NCBI RefSeq assembly: GCF_000317285.1
Contig: NZ_AJLN01000116.1
Span: forward strand, 124,001 to 188,000
Length of the DNA: 64,000 nucleotides
From: Chlorogloeopsis fritschii PCC 6912
Lineage (GTDB): Bacteria; Cyanobacteriota; Cyanobacteriia; Cyanobacteriales; Nostocaceae
Direction: 5' to 3'
Shown piece by piece: positions 14,980 through 21,528 of the stretch (the stretch's first letter is position 1; every line of letters begins with the position of its first letter). The notes beneath the pieces were generated by a model, which saw nothing but the letters and a program-made list of their open reading frames with translations, was not told the DNA's origin and ran no database searches. The position numbers and the translations under genes were made by a program.

Positions 14980-15186
14980 ATGTCGCGCTTATTTAAAATT
15001 ACTGCTTGTGTTCCCAGCCAAACTAGAATTCGCACTCAGCGGGAATTGCAAAATACTTACTTCACTAAGTTAGTTCCTTATGAAAACTGGTTCCGCGAAC
15101 AGCAACGTATTCAAAAAATGGGTGGCAAAATCGTTAAAGTAGAATTAGCTACTGGTAAGCAAGGAACAAATACTGGTTTAGCTTAA
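14980..15186 (+). CDS. apcC: Phycobilisome core small linker ApcC (Lc7.8)
   Basis: Small linker that caps and stabilises allophycocyanin trimers in the core cylinders. The 68 residues start MSRLFKITACVPSQTRIRTQ, with the CpcD-like fold signature TRIRTQRELQNTYFTKLVPY. The ribosome-binding site AGGAGA lies 10 nt upstream of ATG. It is the last gene of the operon and is followed by a good terminator hairpin. Confidence 0.98.
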   Translation: MSRLFKITACVPSQTRIRTQRELQNTYFTKLVPYENWFREQQRIQKMGGKIVKVELATGKQGTNTGLA

Positions 15187-15223
15187 TATAATTGCTATAG
15201 ACCAAATTATTGTAGGGAGTTGC

Positions 15224-15247
15224 AAGAGGTCTGTTTGACCTCTTTTT
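15224..15247 (+). terminator. Rho-independent terminator of the apc operon
   Basis: AAGAGGTC (15224-15231), loop TGTTT, then GACCTCTT (15237-15244) and a T-run. It lies 38 bp after the apcC stop. Confidence 0.85.
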
Positions 15248-15515
15248 CGTATTATTATCTCTGTGTAAGCTCTGCGACTTCTCCAAGAATTTGCAGAGCT
15301 GTGTTTTTAGTTTATTTATGTTAACTAACTAAATTTTATAGTGTTCTATAGAACTTATGCAGCAGTAACAAAAAATAAACCACATAGACGCGGAGCGGCT
15401 TCCCGCAGGGTAGGGCACAAAGAACACAAAGAAATAAGAGTTTGAGAGAGTTTTTACATAAGTCCTGTTCTTGTAAAAATCGGCTTGTTTGAAAATAGAA
15501 TTAAGTGCAAGAGGT
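15248..15515. other. Intergenic stretch with dispersed-repeat debris
   Basis: The region between the apc terminator and the dioxygenase stop holds no credible gene. A patch around 15385-15430 (GCGGAGCGGCTTCCCGCAGG, then GGCACAAAGAACACAAAGAA) resembles widespread cyanobacterial intergenic repeats. The motif ATAGAATTAAGTGCAAGAGG (15497-15516) resembles the 3' flanks of the palindromes at 40631 and 57366. Confidence 0.5.
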
Positions 15516-16505
15516 TCAATCAAACATTTTCAGAAGACGATATCCACGCGTATATAGCGGAACTGGGCACCCTGCTTTGTGCCTTATCTCTTCAATACTT
15601 TCATCGAATACAATTAGCGTTTCCTTACCCACTTTCAACCACTCTTGGTAGGGTACGCTCATATCTTCTTCCACACCACCAATACTCGGTGGTACCATTG
15701 CCCGGTATGCTTCGTTGAATTTTCTGCGAAATCTAAAATCTACTGAAATTCTTAATCCTTCTGCTTTTCGTCTGACTGTTTGGTGCAATCCGCGAGCATC
15801 GTTGAAGTACATAGTGCCGTGTTGTAATTGTGCTTCTGGGTAAGAGACAACCATTGGAATATCTCTACCTTCATCAAAATCGGACATTACCCGCATTGCT
15901 TGTAGTTCCATTTCGCAGGGCATTTCACCAGCTTCAATAGTTATATTTTCTATGTCCCCAAACAACGGCAAAATTACAACTGTTGCATCTGCCGGAACTC
16001 CTGCCCAAACATCGCTATGACATTTTGAGCTAGCAAAGGGTAAACGAGATTTTTCTGGATCGGTTTTGCCATATACCATGCGCAGATTTACTGGCAAATC
16101 TACTGCATCGATTAAGTCGTTTGCTCCCAATTGATAAAAAGCTTCAGCAACGCTTTTTTGAAAAAGGTTAAAAGCCAGAGTGTGTTCGCGCTTTGGCATT
16201 AAAAGTCCAGTTCCGGTATAGTTGGGTAAAGTATTTCTTGCTTTCAGAAGTTTTTGGAGCATTTCCGCTTCTGAAAGAATGATGGGGCTATTTAAACAAG
16301 CTGAAATGTAAGTTGCCGCTGCAATTTTGATTTGCTGGAACAGTTCAGGCTTTAATTTGTGCTCAAACAATAGTCTGTACTGCCGCTTGGTAGAAATGCG
16401 ATCGCTAAGTTCATCAAATAGCCGATCGCCTAGTTGAGAGAATGCGATCGCGCGTTCATATTCTGACTGATTGTTAAGTTCTGCTCTGGCTAATAATCCT
16501 TCCAT
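15516..16505 (-). CDS. Putative Fe(II)/2-oxoglutarate-dependent dioxygenase
   Basis: The 329-residue soluble protein has no product I recognise by name. The C-terminal half looks like a double-stranded beta-helix oxygenase, with an HxD pair H163/D165 (KCHSDVWAGVPAD), distal His H241 (GLHQTVRRK) and a 2-oxoglutarate-anchoring Arg candidate at R252 or R258 (GLRISVDFRFRR). Spacing and order fit the Fe(II)/2OG facial triad. The first 130 residues are helical and match nothing I know. It is transcribed away from a methyltransferase/diiron-oxidase pair across a long AT-rich gap, so a shared role in modifying a small molecule is possible. The substrate is unknown. Confidence 0.6.
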   Translation of the reverse strand: MEGLLARAELNNQSEYERAIAFSQLGDRLFDELSDRISTKRQYRLLFEHKLKPELFQQIKIAAATYISACLNSPIILSEAEMLQKLLKARNTLPNYTGTGLLMPKREHTLAFNLFQKSVAEAFYQLGANDLIDAVDLPVNLRMVYGKTDPEKSRLPFASSKCHSDVWAGVPADATVVILPLFGDIENITIEAGEMPCEMELQAMRVMSDFDEGRDIPMVVSYPEAQLQHGTMYFNDARGLHQTVRRKAEGLRISVDFRFRRKFNEAYRAMVPPSIGGVEEDMSVPYQEWLKVGKETLIVFDESIEEIRHKAGCPVPLYTRGYRLLKMFD

Positions 16506-17215
16506 AATTATCCTTTCTTAATTTTTGCAATTGAATAAGTTGGGCTTAGAAATAGAGAAATATGATTTCTGACTAATAAACTCTACTGGTTTTCTAGATT
16601 CTTAATAGAAGATTCTTACAGAGTGCTAACTAATTAAATCTAATGAAAACCAATAATTTTATCTTGAAGGAATATAAATGGAGTTAAAAGAGTGATACTC
16701 CGGATAAATTTTATAAATTAGAAATAAAGATTATGGGAGAAATATTTCATATTTTTAAAGCAGATTAGATTATGAAGCTTAGTCTAAAAAACATAAAATT
16801 TACTTAAGATATTGTATAGCTTTCTATAAATTTACTAGTAAATCAATATAAAGTGTTTGAAACAGCTAGTTATAGCTTGATTCACAGCCTCATCTCTAGA
16901 GAAGTTATAAAAATCAGTAAAATCAACATTATCAACAAAATATACAATTGCTAAAACTATAGTGTAGCTGGTGAAAATCTAATTTGAATTGAAGAAGAGC
17001 AGATTAATTGACCAGTAATTAAGTATAAGCCTGGTTAACATTTTTGAAAGAGTGCCGAGCAAAATTGTTTGTTGTGCATATTCTTTCTATTGGTCAGATT
17101 TTAGCTTCTTAAATATGCTCTTTTGAGAAGGATTGAAAAATTAATGTTAATCATTTGCTTAAACATCAGGGGCTTAACTCAATCGATTTAATTGGAAGAA
17201 ATAAAGAACTGCAAA
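16506..17215. other. Long AT-rich divergent intergenic region
   Basis: About 710 bp, visibly richer in A and T than the surroundings, between the divergent dioxygenase and methyltransferase genes. I see no gene, RNA or clear operator, apart from a small palindrome at about 16842 (TTTACTAGTAAA). It should contain the promoters for both directions. Confidence 0.5.
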
Positions 17216-17986
17216 ATGACAAGCCCAAATAATAAAAATTCCACTAAAAACCTTTATGACAGTACAGCATCACAGTGGATTAGAGGAGAACCTTCTTCAC
17301 TATCTGACTTTACAGCACGCCCGTTTGTGTTAGAACTTTGTGAGCCTGTTAAGGGTTTGCGGGTTTTGGATCTTGGTTGTGGTGAAGGTTATTGCAGCCG
17401 AGAGTTACGCAAAAGAGGTGCAGCACAAGTATGTGGTGTTGATATTTCTGAAGGCATGATTGCCGCAGCAAAGTTGCAGGAAGCGGAAGATTCCTTAGGT
17501 ATTCACTATGAAGTAGGATGTGCTACCGAACTCAAGCAATTTGGCGATCGCACATTTGACTTGGTAGTTGCTGTTTTTCTTTTTAACTACTTAACAACTG
17601 CTCAAACCCAGCAATGCATCGCAGAAATTGCACGTGTACTTTGCCCTGGGGGTAAATTTGTTTTCAGTGTTCCCCATCCATCCTTTCCTTATATGCGAGA
17701 AGCAGCCTATCCCTTCTATTTTGAAGTTGAAGGTAGAGGCTACTTCAGTAAACGAGATTGGCAATTTCCAGGGCGGATATGGAAAAGAGACGGTTCTTGG
17801 CTAAATGTGCAATTAGTTCATAAAACCTTTGAAGACTATTTTGATGCCCTCAAAAAAGCTGGCTTCAATACAATGCCCGTGCTCAGAGAATTACGAGTTA
17901 CCCCAGAACACATCGCACTCGATGAATTATTCTTCCGCCCTTTGATTGATTTACCACTTCATCTTGCTATACAGGTATCACGATGA
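17216..17986 (+). CDS. Class I SAM-dependent methyltransferase
   Basis: A small-molecule-type methyltransferase of about 256 residues. Motif I is VLDLGCGEGYCSREL, post-I is VCGVDISEGMIAAAKLQE, motif II is FDLVVAVFLFNYL and motif III is LCPGGKFVFSVPHPSF. The C-terminal part is Trp/Tyr-rich (YFSKRDWQFPGRIWKRDGSW), as in methyltransferases that close over an organic substrate. The open frame extends upstream to a TTG at 17192, but ATG 17216 is the more likely start. Its last codons overlap the next gene by 4 bp (ATGA), so the two are translationally coupled. Confidence 0.85.
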   Translation: MTSPNNKNSTKNLYDSTASQWIRGEPSSLSDFTARPFVLELCEPVKGLRVLDLGCGEGYCSRELRKRGAAQVCGVDISEGMIAAAKLQEAEDSLGIHYEVGCATELKQFGDRTFDLVVAVFLFNYLTTAQTQQCIAEIARVLCPGGKFVFSVPHPSFPYMREAAYPFYFEVEGRGYFSKRDWQFPGRIWKRDGSWLNVQLVHKTFEDYFDALKKAGFNTMPVLRELRVTPEHIALDELFFRPLIDLPLHLAIQVSR

Positions 17987-18717
17987 AAAACTTGTCTTCT
18001 TTTGCCAATATTCAGGAATCTTTACGTGGAATTACTGCTAATCATTCTCTTTGGAATCATGAGTTTTTAAACCGTTGTCGTACTAGACAATTGTCTCTGC
18101 AAGAGGTACAAGTACTAGCTGTGCAAATGTATAAATTCTCTAAAGAATTTAATCGTATCCTGGCTAGAATCTTATCTTGCTGTAAAGATGAAAGTGCTCA
18201 GTTAGTAATCCTAGAAAATCTATTTGACGAAATGGGGCAAGGAGATTTAAATCAGTCTCATCCAGAGTTATTTCGCCGCTTCACAAGGGCACTTGGTATT
18301 GACGACGAAATTCTTGCCATCCAAGCTCCAACTCTTGAAACTCAAGCCTTAGTTAATACCTACCTACAGATACCGCATCAGTATGGTTTTTTAGGTGCAC
18401 TTGGTGCAGTATGTTACGCTTCAGAAGGTATTGTAAGTACGCTGTATACCCAACTATATCAAGGCATCATTGGTGCTGCACCTTTACCAAAAGAATCTCT
18501 AAAATTTTTTGAAGTCCATATTGATGTGGATGATAGCCATGCAGCAAAGCTAGCAGCACTGATTGAACCTCGGCTAACCACGCATGAAGAATTAGAAAAG
18601 ATAAAACTTGCCATTCTAGAAGCAATGAATGCTCGCGTGCAATTTTTTAATGGAGTTCAGCGTCAAATAAATGAGTCTAGCTTGATTGCTAATTCATTGA
18701 TGCTTATGAACGTATAG
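17983..18717 (+). CDS. Haem-oxygenase-like diiron oxidase (HDO/PqqC-like superfamily)
   Basis: The 244-residue all-helical protein resembles the 'iron-containing redox enzyme' family, whose members include UndA, BesC, CADD and the SznF central domain. Candidate diiron ligands are the Glu/His set in ENLFDEMGQGDLNQSHPELF, the Glu in CYASEGIVSTLY and the HxxxDxxH motif HIDVDDSH. These enzymes use O2 to cleave C-C or C-N bonds, desaturate or N-oxygenate amines and amino acids. The substrate here is unknown. The gene is coupled by a 4-bp overlap to the methyltransferase and lies 214 bp upstream of an NO sensor. Confidence 0.75.
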   Translation: MKNLSSFANIQESLRGITANHSLWNHEFLNRCRTRQLSLQEVQVLAVQMYKFSKEFNRILARILSCCKDESAQLVILENLFDEMGQGDLNQSHPELFRRFTRALGIDDEILAIQAPTLETQALVNTYLQIPHQYGFLGALGAVCYASEGIVSTLYTQLYQGIIGAAPLPKESLKFFEVHIDVDDSHAAKLAALIEPRLTTHEELEKIKLAILEAMNARVQFFNGVQRQINESSLIANSLMLMNV

Positions 18718-18748
18718 CAAGGAAAGGTGAACATACTGTTGTAAGTAT

Positions 18749-18790
18749 GCTGGATTTAGCGACTAAAATAGCATCCAGCCTACTTTATTT
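18749..18790 (+). terminator. Possible weak terminator after the diiron oxidase gene
   Basis: GCTGGAT (18749-18755) and ATCCAGC (18773-18779) pair, with extra TTAG/CTAA pairing inside. The hairpin is followed by a broken T-rich tract (TACTTTATTTTTC). It may only partly separate the enzyme genes from the H-NOX genes. Confidence 0.45.
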
Positions 18791-18931
18791 TTCTATTTTC
18801 TCCAACTATAGAGTTAAAGCAAAACCAAAGTTTGGCTACGATAAAAAATTTCAAAACAGGTGTATAAAGTTTATTTTTGAATTGAACTTCAAGCAAACAA
18901 TTGAAATTAGATACACAAATCAGGAGGCTGA

Positions 18932-19483
18932 ATGTACGGGTTAGTCAATAAAGCAATTCAAGATATGGTATGTAGTCGGTTTGACGAAAAGACTTGGGAA
19001 GAAATTAAGCAGAAAGCAGAAATAGAAGTCGATGTTTTTATCAGAATGGAAGCTTATCCTGATGACATCACTCATAGGCTAGTAAAAGCTGCTAGTGCTG
19101 TACTGAATCTAACACCTCAAGAAATCATGCAAGCTTTTGGAGAATATTGGGTGCAGTATACAGCACAGGAGGGTTATGGTGAACTGATGGATATGAGTGG
19201 AGATAATCTGGTTGAATTTTTAGAAAATCTCGATAACCTTCATGCTCGCGTAGGAATTAGTTTTCCTAAGCTTCAACCTCCATCTTTTGAGTGTGCAGAT
19301 ACAGAAGAAGAATCTTTAAGCTTACATTATCGTTCAACTAGAGAAGGACTAGCTCCAATGGTAATTGGTTTAGTCAAGGGATTGGGAAAAAGATTTGATA
19401 CAGAAGTTGATATTGCCCAAACCCAAAGTCGGGAAGAAGGAGCTGAACACGATGAATTTTTGGTGAAATACAAACCACAATGA
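18932..19483 (+). CDS. H-NOX haem-based nitric oxide sensor
   Basis: The 183-residue stand-alone H-NOX (HNOB) domain binds haem and senses NO. The proximal haem ligand is H104 in [20 protein letters not shown], the haem-propionate-binding YxSxR motif is Y133-S135-R137, and a distal-pocket Trp lies at W73. Position 140 is Leu in STREGLAPM, where O2-binding members have Tyr, so this protein should bind NO and CO but not O2. It closely resembles the Nostoc H-NOX of known structure. A strong AGGAGG precedes the ATG. The kinase gene follows after 7 bp. Confidence 0.95.
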
Positions 19484-19490
19484 GAACAAC

Positions 19491-20951
19491 ATGATTCTTA
19501 CTCAGTTGAGTCTTTCGTTTGATTCATTTGCAAAAGCATTTCCATTTCATTTTGTAATTAACCGCGACTTGGAAATTGTACAAATTGGTACGGTTCTACA
19601 GCGTATTTGTCCCGAAGAAATTATAGGCAAATCTCTTGAGCAGTATTTTCAAATCAATCGCCCAAATATTCCAATTGATTTTGATGTTTTTATCAAACAG
19701 TCTCGCGCTCTTTTTATTGTGGAGTTTCTCCACAATGGAATGCAGCTGAAGGGGCAAATGGTATATCAAGTAGAACAGGATGTAGTATTTTTTCTTGGTT
19801 CCCCCTGGATAACTGATACTAATAGTCTTGCCCCTTTTGGCCTTAAACTCAAGGATTTTGCAATTCACGATCCAATCGTTGATTTTATCTTTTTACTACA
19901 AGCTAAGAATACAGCTTTAGCTGATACTGAAAAGTTAACAGCAGAACTAACCCAGCAACAAGTGGAATTAAAGAGTGCTCTGCAAATCAAAGAAAATTTA
20001 GCTAAAATTGCTAAATCGCAGGCTGAAAGATTACAAAAATCTTTAATGGAATTGCAAGATGCCCAAGCTCAATTAGTTCAAGCGGAAAAAATGTCTAGTC
20101 TTGGACAAATGGTGGCAGGAATAGCTCATGAAATTAATAACCCCATTAATTTTATTTATGGCAATATAAATTATGTTGAAGAATACGCACAAGACTTATT
20201 AAACTTAGTTAAGCTTTATCAAAAATATAATTACAATCAAATAACAGAAATTCAGGATTACATTAAAAACATTGATTTAGAATACCTAACTGATGATTTA
20301 CCACAAATCATCAATTCTATAAAAATAGGTGCAGAACGCATTACAGAGATAGTTTTATCTCTTCGTAACTTTTCCCGCTTAGATGAAGCTGAGATGAAAA
20401 GGGTTAATATTCATGAAGGAATAGATAGTACTTTACTACTTTTGCAACATCGGCTTAAAGCTCAATCAAATCGTTCTAGCATAGAAATTGTGAAAACATA
20501 TGGAAATTTGCCTTTAGTAGAATGCTATCCTGGTCAACTTAATCAAGTATTCATGAATATTATTAGTAATGCAATTGATGCGCTGGATAGTCATAACAGT
20601 CAAAAATCTACGGAAGAAAGTCAGGCTAATCAACGTAAAATTAGTATTGCTACAGAATTATTGGAAAGCAACTTTGTTTTAATCAGAATTGCCGATAATG
20701 GTTCAGGTATACCTGAGTCTATTAAATCACAAATTTTTGATCCATTTTTCACAACTAAACCTGTTGGAAAAGGTACAGGGTTGGGTTTGTCAATCAGTTA
20801 TAAAATAGTAGTGGGAAAACACAAAGGACAACTTAGTTGTGTTTCACAGCCAGATCAAGGAACCGAGTTCTGGATCAAGATTCCTTTATCAGTTGATAGC
20901 CAAACAGGGAATAATCTTGAATCACTGACTTATGTAATGCAAGAAAGTTAA
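19491..20951 (+). CDS. H-NOX-associated sensor histidine kinase
   Basis: Partner kinase for the preceding H-NOX. In the 486 residues, the N-terminal part (about 1-135) is an HNOB-associated domain. A coiled coil (about 140-200) follows, then a HisKA H-box with H213 ([18 protein letters not shown]). The ATPase part has the N-box [16 protein letters not shown]1 [10 protein letters not shown]-box [14 protein letters not shown] and G2 GLGLSISY. There is no transmembrane segment, so it is cytoplasmic. In characterised systems NO-bound H-NOX inhibits the kinase. No response regulator is encoded nearby. Confidence 0.93.
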
Positions 20952-21003
20952 TATTACTGAGCATACTTAAATGTTGTTTATGTTTTATCTTACCCTTCTC
21001 TTT

Positions 21004-21034
21004 AGGAAGCAGTATAAAAAGCTGCTTCCTTTTT
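21004..21034 (+). terminator. Rho-independent terminator of the H-NOX/kinase genes
   Basis: AGGAAGCAG (21004-21012), loop TATAAAAAG, CTGCTTCCT (21022-21030), then TTTT. It lies 53 bp after the kinase stop. Confidence 0.88.
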
Positions 21035-21483
21035 GCTTTTATGAAATTTTTTTATCAATCGCAGAAAGATTTGTGCCAGACTTAGGGGATTTAGCCAGTA
21101 GTACAGTGTGACTGGTTATGATACTCATATCTTTTACCAGTTGCTTGATGGCAATTTTTTTAAGGCTGGCACTGCCTAACTTTCCTCAAACCCTTATTTT
21201 TGCGTTGGGCATAGTACCCACCCTACTTAAAGAAGCGCGATCGCTAACTCTAATACTTAAATATATTTATTGACGCTGTATTTTTAGTTTGTTATACTTG
21301 CGGCTGCGATATTTTAATTGATAATTATCATTTTTAATAATTAATTAAATTTTATATTTATAAATAAAAATCACAACAGAATGACGACGTTAATTTTTGA
21401 AAGAGGAAATTGACGATGCGTTAAAATTACCTTATTTTTCTAAATTAATATTTTGAAAGTCTTTATCAATTCTTAAATTGAGC

Positions 21484-21497
21484 AAATGACGTCATTT
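21484..21497 (+). promoter_or_regulatory. Perfect 14-bp palindrome, candidate operator
   Basis: AAATGACGTCATTT lies about 31 bp upstream of the lipoprotein start. A related half (ATGACGACGTTAAT) occurs at about 21381. The position suggests a dimeric regulator site, but I cannot assign the regulator. Confidence 0.4.
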
Positions 21498-21528
21498 AAG
21501 TCAATCAATACTTAAAGAATTAATAATT

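Follow-up and report, generated by a model that had tools for sequence, protein, structure and literature searches.

The subject of this report is a block of 5 genes in a 64,000-nucleotide stretch of the genome of Chlorogloeopsis fritschii PCC 6912 (the whole stretch is hereafter called the window), in which 3 predicted enzymes, an Fe(II)/2-oxoglutarate (2OG) dioxygenase-like protein (OG2), a methyltransferase (MT) and a haem-oxygenase-like oxidase (DIO), lie beside a haem-based nitric oxide (NO) sensor of the H-NOX type and its histidine kinase. The statement best supported by our analysis is that the 5 genes constitute one functional locus. The order OG2-MT-DIO-H-NOX was observed in 36 of 36 assessable loci, with the kinase next wherever the contig extends far enough, and because it recurs in this way the arrangement is more than chance or a local accident. 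The 3 enzymes probably make or modify a small molecule, as a block that accompanies an NO sensor and kinase in many filamentous cyanobacteria. The features of the locus in the window are the following.

15224..15244, + strand: terminator-like hairpin 3' of apcC, the cassette's upstream border
15516..16505, - strand: OG2, Fe(II)/2OG dioxygenase-like protein of 329 aa (HxD...H-x10-RxS motif, predicted fold)
16909..16957, + strand: conserved promoter/operator-like element 5' of MT (consensus AAAAATCGGTAAAATCAACATTAGCAACAAAATAAGTAAATGTTAAAAC)
17192..17986, + strand: MT, class I S-adenosylmethionine (SAM)-dependent methyltransferase (conserved start, ATG 17216)
17983..18717, + strand: DIO, predicted haem-oxygenase-like dimetal oxidase, CADD/BesC-like (ligand set, predicted fold)
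18932..19483, + strand: H-NOX haem NO sensor (HNOB family, closest solved relative Alr2278)
19491..20951, + strand: HNOBA-domain histidine kinase, the H-NOX partner (HNOBA+HisKA+HATPase; H213 in HEINNP)
21004..21030, + strand: terminator-like hairpin 3' of the kinase, likely the downstream border

Conservation, losses and partner exchange

Scanning 84,980 species genomes for OG2 yielded 38 loci, all cyanobacterial, from which L049 (starting at a contig edge) and L060 (decayed) were left out to give the 36 assessable loci. Nine loci (L055, L057 and L061 to L067) lie apart from the apc operon, among unrelated neighbours, and the cassette was found in at least 6 unrelated genomic settings. In the Leptolyngbyaceae-type loci L064, L065 and L067 all genes are co-directional, with OG2 located 66-130 bp before MT; in 2 of these 3, a gene for an HNOBA-GAF-PAS-GGDEF-EAL protein stands between DIO and H-NOX (L064:12661-15462 and L065:12683-15469), which places a gene for an H-NOX output inside the block. 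H-NOX itself was always co-directional and directly 3' of either DIO or this HNOBA output gene.

We also sampled 145 Nostocaceae genomes, 25 with intact OG2 and 55 with H-NOX. The gene order was kept in 25/25 genomes with intact OG2, at distances from OG2 of 2.1-2.7 kb for DIO and 2.8-3.5 kb for H-NOX, and no genome among the 145 had intact OG2 without H-NOX; the corresponding association (Fisher p = 4e-13) ignores relatedness and is indicative only. The earlier note on this DNA had proposed that the enzymes make a small molecule linked to NO, and had suggested a search of cyanobacterial genomes for co-occurrence and gene order. The part of that proposal which stands is that enzymes of small-molecule type evolve as one locus with H-NOX and the kinase, by the counts of loci, genomes and settings given above; its analogy to SznF, discussed below, does not. 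The search itself was likewise divided in outcome, in that intact OG2 was never found away from H-NOX but the MT-DIO pair was, in 5 genomes; the note's ground for refutation, enzyme orthologues regularly located apart from H-NOX, thus does not apply to OG2.

In the H-NOX tree, a single clade of 42 rows contains the cassette-bearing Nostocales rows, and 5 cassette-less rows nested inside that clade appear, from the tree topology, to be losses. In G472 and G546, H-NOX and a remnant of OG2 are left but MT-DIO is missing, G316 retains only OG2 remnants, and in G169 the order is apcC-H-NOX-kinase with none of the 3 enzyme genes between. These remnants, the decay of L060 and the G169 layout indicate that the enzymes were lost together and that the sensor can outlive them.

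MT and DIO were always together among close relatives. In L114 to L118 we observed the order coxBAC - DHDPS-family aldolase gene - MT - DIO, once with NDH-2 next, and among the 145 genomes this DHDPS-family gene is present in exactly the 5 that carry MT-DIO only. The MT-DIO tree places the DHDPS type as one clade nested within the OG2 type, which argues that MT-DIO is the core and that the third enzyme, OG2 or the DHDPS-family aldolase, is exchangeable. One of these loci (L118:9024-10821, in G608) has its DIO gene interrupted by an inserted open reading frame of 526 aa, a putative transposase.

Alignment of the OG2-MT spacers revealed a single conserved block, at window positions 16909-16963, the rest of the spacer being poorly alignable. 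Only one site in the whole genome matches the consensus AATCRGTAWAATYAACATT-N18-TGNTAAAA with <=3 mismatches. With a scoring matrix built from 33 OG2-type sites, the sites 5' of the DHDPS gene in L114-L118 scored 15-27.5, against a background maximum of 6.7 over 449,214 positions. Since the element precedes both versions of the operon, we argue for its being a dedicated, putative promoter/operator.

Predicted activities of the encoded proteins

OG2 gave no match in Pfam, NCBIfam or PDB sequences, even with a 22-row profile, and no copy was found in a search of plasmids; its nearest relative is from cyanobacterium PCC 7702, of the same genus as the window organism. Residues H163, D165, H241, R252 and S254 are invariant in 43/43 orthologue sequences, and OG2 contains both the HxD...H triad and the 2OG-binding RxS of Fe(II)/2OG dioxygenases. 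Its predicted model is coarse (predicted local distance difference test score, pLDDT, of only 62) and has a double-stranded beta-helix; the fold matches listed are 2OG oxygenases, among them EvdO1, PhyH and PtlH, with Z scores of ~10 (best 10.2, EvdO1). By these indications OG2 is an intact 2OG-oxygenase with predicted turnover, and the earlier description of a putative Fe(II)/2OG dioxygenase, based on H163, D165 and H241, is upheld by fold and by invariance. An Asp at the triad position marks a hydroxylase-type rather than a halogenase-type site, and because Asp165 is kept we take the OG2 site to be of the former type.

MT matched Methyltransf_25/11 and has a standard class I SAM core; its nearest solved relative is ToxA, with similarity confined to the Rossmann core. 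DIO matched Haem_oxygenas_2 (PF14518, E = 5e-30), and the earlier reading of the 2 genes as a methyltransferase and haem-oxygenase-like oxidase pair agrees with these matches. The DIO model (pLDDT 89) has the seven-helix haem-oxygenase-like fold of the haem-oxygenase-like dimetal oxidases (HDOs). The nearest structure is CADD (CT610; Z 25.7 over 213 residues, rmsd 1.9), followed by HrmI, FlcD and BesC. The 3 His/3 carboxylate ligands E83, H93, E148, H179, D183 and H186 are invariant in 45/45 sequences and align with the CADD ligands. On fold and ligand set DIO is assigned as an HDO, with metal binding and O2 activation predicted, and its subfamily is one of uncharacterised HDOs with a defined operon partner, MT. 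Characterised HDOs act mostly on amino or fatty acids (PMC13108848), for which reason an amino-acid-derived metabolite is our best guess.

BesC, an HDO that cleaves 4-chloro-lysine, is similar to DIO in length (~23% identity) and works beside a 2OG-Fe enzyme, BesD. However, DIO scored 52.6 bits against a cut-off of 500 for the BesC equivalog (NF042919), the besA/B/E context is absent, and OG2, by its Asp165, is of hydroxylase rather than halogenase type. More distant DIO relatives occur on plasmids (in Pantoea, in Burkholderia and, with nonribosomal peptide synthetase genes, in Scytonema), and the contexts that we read had no common partner; the aldolase near the Burkholderia relative has no detectable kinship with the DHDPS protein. 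On the Pantoea agglomerans plasmid (L147:6905-8905) an HDO domain is fused to a class III aminotransferase in a gene annotated as plain ectB.

H-NOX matched HNOB (E = 3e-57), and its closest solved relative, Alr2278, is a standard structural model of the haem domain of soluble guanylate cyclase. The features of an NO sensor are present: the proximal His (H104 in the window) and the YxSxR motif are kept in 45/45, and the window protein has a W73/M143 pocket and no Tyr in the distal-helix stretch. The adjacent signalling partner, located 7 bp 3' of H-NOX, matched HNOBA, HisKA and HATPase, as anticipated when the pair was described in the earlier note as an H-NOX and its kinase downstream of DIO. 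H-NOX proteins that lack the distal Tyr do not bind O2 stably; they respond to NO by regulating kinases (PMC12329717). The window genome also encodes a bacterial-type NO synthase oxygenase domain (G000:C15:123664-124740), a possible internal source of NO. NO synthase genes were found in 9/25 cassette carriers (2 of these as partial matches) versus 5/25 others, a chosen set, so there was no clear tracking, and with only 9/25 carriers having the gene, endogenous NO from this enzyme is no requirement. Other cyanobacterial H-NOX/kinase pairs (L126:7818-9225, L127 and L128) have different recurrent companions, a MIF-family tautomerase and a tetrapyrrole methylase.

Proposed relation of the enzymes to NO sensing

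We lean towards a reading in which the OG2/MT/DIO block is coupled to the haem NO/redox sensor-kinase as one locus, with the metabolite as the output of NO/redox sensing. In such a scheme, OG2 would oxidize a small, probably amino-acid-derived substrate, MT would methylate the product, and DIO would carry out an O2-dependent C-C/C-N cleavage, desaturation or N-oxygenation. H-NOX, on binding NO (or on its own oxidation), would switch the HNOBA kinase, and in the Leptolyngbyaceae the HNOBA-GGDEF-EAL enzyme as well; the kinase, through a putative response regulator, would set expression of the enzyme block. We favour this direction over the reverse, an action of the product on the sensor, since control of adjacent genes is common among sensor-kinase pairs. 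The H-NOX/HnoK (HNOBA kinase) circuits of Shewanella and Vibrio, and the pairs of H-NOX with diguanylate cyclase-phosphodiesterase proteins, similarly have a stand-alone NO-sensing H-NOX beside its partner, a kinase in the former, as here, and the latter arrangement is found likewise in L064 and L065. The known outputs of these systems are cyclic di-GMP, biofilm or quorum sensing, whereas the conserved companion here is a block of 3 metabolic enzymes.

Several observations weigh against such a coupling. H-NOX and the kinase persist without the enzymes in G169, G470, G472 and G546, by which the sensor is independent of them. MT-DIO is present in 5 genomes of 2 genera (G515, G599, G608, G614 and G560) that lack OG2 and have H-NOX at another place; the presence of H-NOX in all 5 is weak evidence, since 4 of them share one genus. 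No response regulator was recognised among the recurrent neighbours of the loci, a distant one being possible, and neither the cassette-less loci tested nor the Leptolyngbyaceae had the upstream element beside H-NOX, so that by itself it gives no tie of expression to H-NOX. The relocation of MT-DIO to a cox locus with another partner, and the survival of the sensor pair after enzyme loss, would suit a small-molecule pathway that stands on its own and is not regulated through NO, its genes only accompanying H-NOX/kinase in a conserved neighbourhood or within a shared mobile unit. We consider this unlikely, though the most credible of the alternatives: the linkage was kept through at least 6 relocations and a reversal of OG2 orientation, intact OG2 was not seen without H-NOX, and the position and direction of H-NOX relative to DIO or the HNOBA output gene did not vary. 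An improbable account, which would give the H-NOX and coxBAC settings a common basis, is that the MT-DIO product aids haem-copper respiration or acts on haem centres, as a metallophore or haem ligand. It draws on the coxBAC - DHDPS - MT - DIO loci, with their single NDH-2 neighbour, and on the presence among the fold relatives of FlcD, an enzyme of the biosynthesis of copper-binding fluopsin C (PMC11363339). Yet the cox setting is derived, confined to one clade and may reflect promoter capture; no transporter or metal gene was seen, and the account is pure inference.

Two further alternatives concern the chemistry of DIO. In the streptozotocin genes a methyltransferase (SznE) is adjacent to an HDO-cupin protein (SznF), a layout that the cassette resembles, and the earlier note had pointed to SznF as a precedent for an NO-releasing product. 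A pathway of this kind, leading to an N-nitroso, NO-releasing compound, is nevertheless very improbable: DIO is a single 244-aa domain with no cupin match, hence without the N-nitrosation domain, its similarity to SznF is only E ~0.1, its nearest structures are those of the CADD, HrmI, FlcD and BesC group, and OG2 is present instead. We rejected the SznF-like reading on this domain architecture. The CADD/NePabS 4-aminobenzoate synthases are the closest to DIO in fold and sequence (~25% identity) and share its 3 His/3 carboxylate positions, so that the Z score for CADD could be taken to suggest a self-sacrificing 4-aminobenzoate synthase for folate. That is hardly credible, and was rejected on sequence. 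The sacrificial Tyr27 and Lys152 of CADD (PMC13108848, PMC11965152) are replaced in 45/45 DIO sequences, by Leu29 and by Leu/Ile158 (L158 in the window), DIO scored 93.3 bits against a cut-off of 200 for TIGR04305 (CADD-type 4-aminobenzoate synthase), and it is paired with MT and OG2. As DIO has neither these Tyr and Lys residues nor the SznF cupin, an NO-releasing product is unsupported.

The coupled reading that we prefer admits a bolder form, which we regard as doubtful: a new type of NO circuit in which a methylated, oxidised metabolite made by the enzyme cassette would carry the signal, whether it is an output produced when NO is sensed or binds to haem centres (H-NOX, terminal oxidase) as a ligand. 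By exchanging its third enzyme, the MT-HDO core would be able to move between sensor and respiratory-oxidase loci. In the open-licence papers that we searched, we found no explanation of the physiological output of cyanobacterial H-NOX and no description of the cassette under H-NOX in Nostoc, cyanobacteria or biosynthetic clusters or under HDO-methyltransferase systems, an absence that is not proof. A conserved enzyme block in the H-NOX locus offers a concrete, testable output for the cyanobacterial sensor, and a likely NO-linked pathway is now open to laboratory testing. Because the uncharacterised HDO subfamily has a defined MT partner, 2 alternative third enzymes and a conserved promoter-like element, discovery of its product is practical.

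Layout of the locus in the window

The window genome (7.75 Mb) is of Nostocaceae type. The positions of the 5 genes given in the earlier note agree with the open reading frame list, as do the 4-base MT/DIO overlap (ATGA) and the 214-bp gap between DIO and H-NOX; MT and DIO are predicted to be translationally coupled. Upstream of the cassette lies apcEABC, which the hairpin at 15224 closes. OG2 was correctly described as divergent from MT across ~700 AT-rich bases: the spacer is 686 bp, or 710 bp if counted to ATG 17216, the start retained in relatives, and its A+T content is 73% versus 58% for the window. No Rfam families were found in 15000-21500. A terminator scan of the DIO-H-NOX gaps in relatives was of limited sensitivity, in that post-kinase terminators were also missed by the same scan. 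Within this gap in the window (18722-18790) there are 2 short inverted repeats and, after them, a run rich in T, which together may be part of a terminator or a site of processing.

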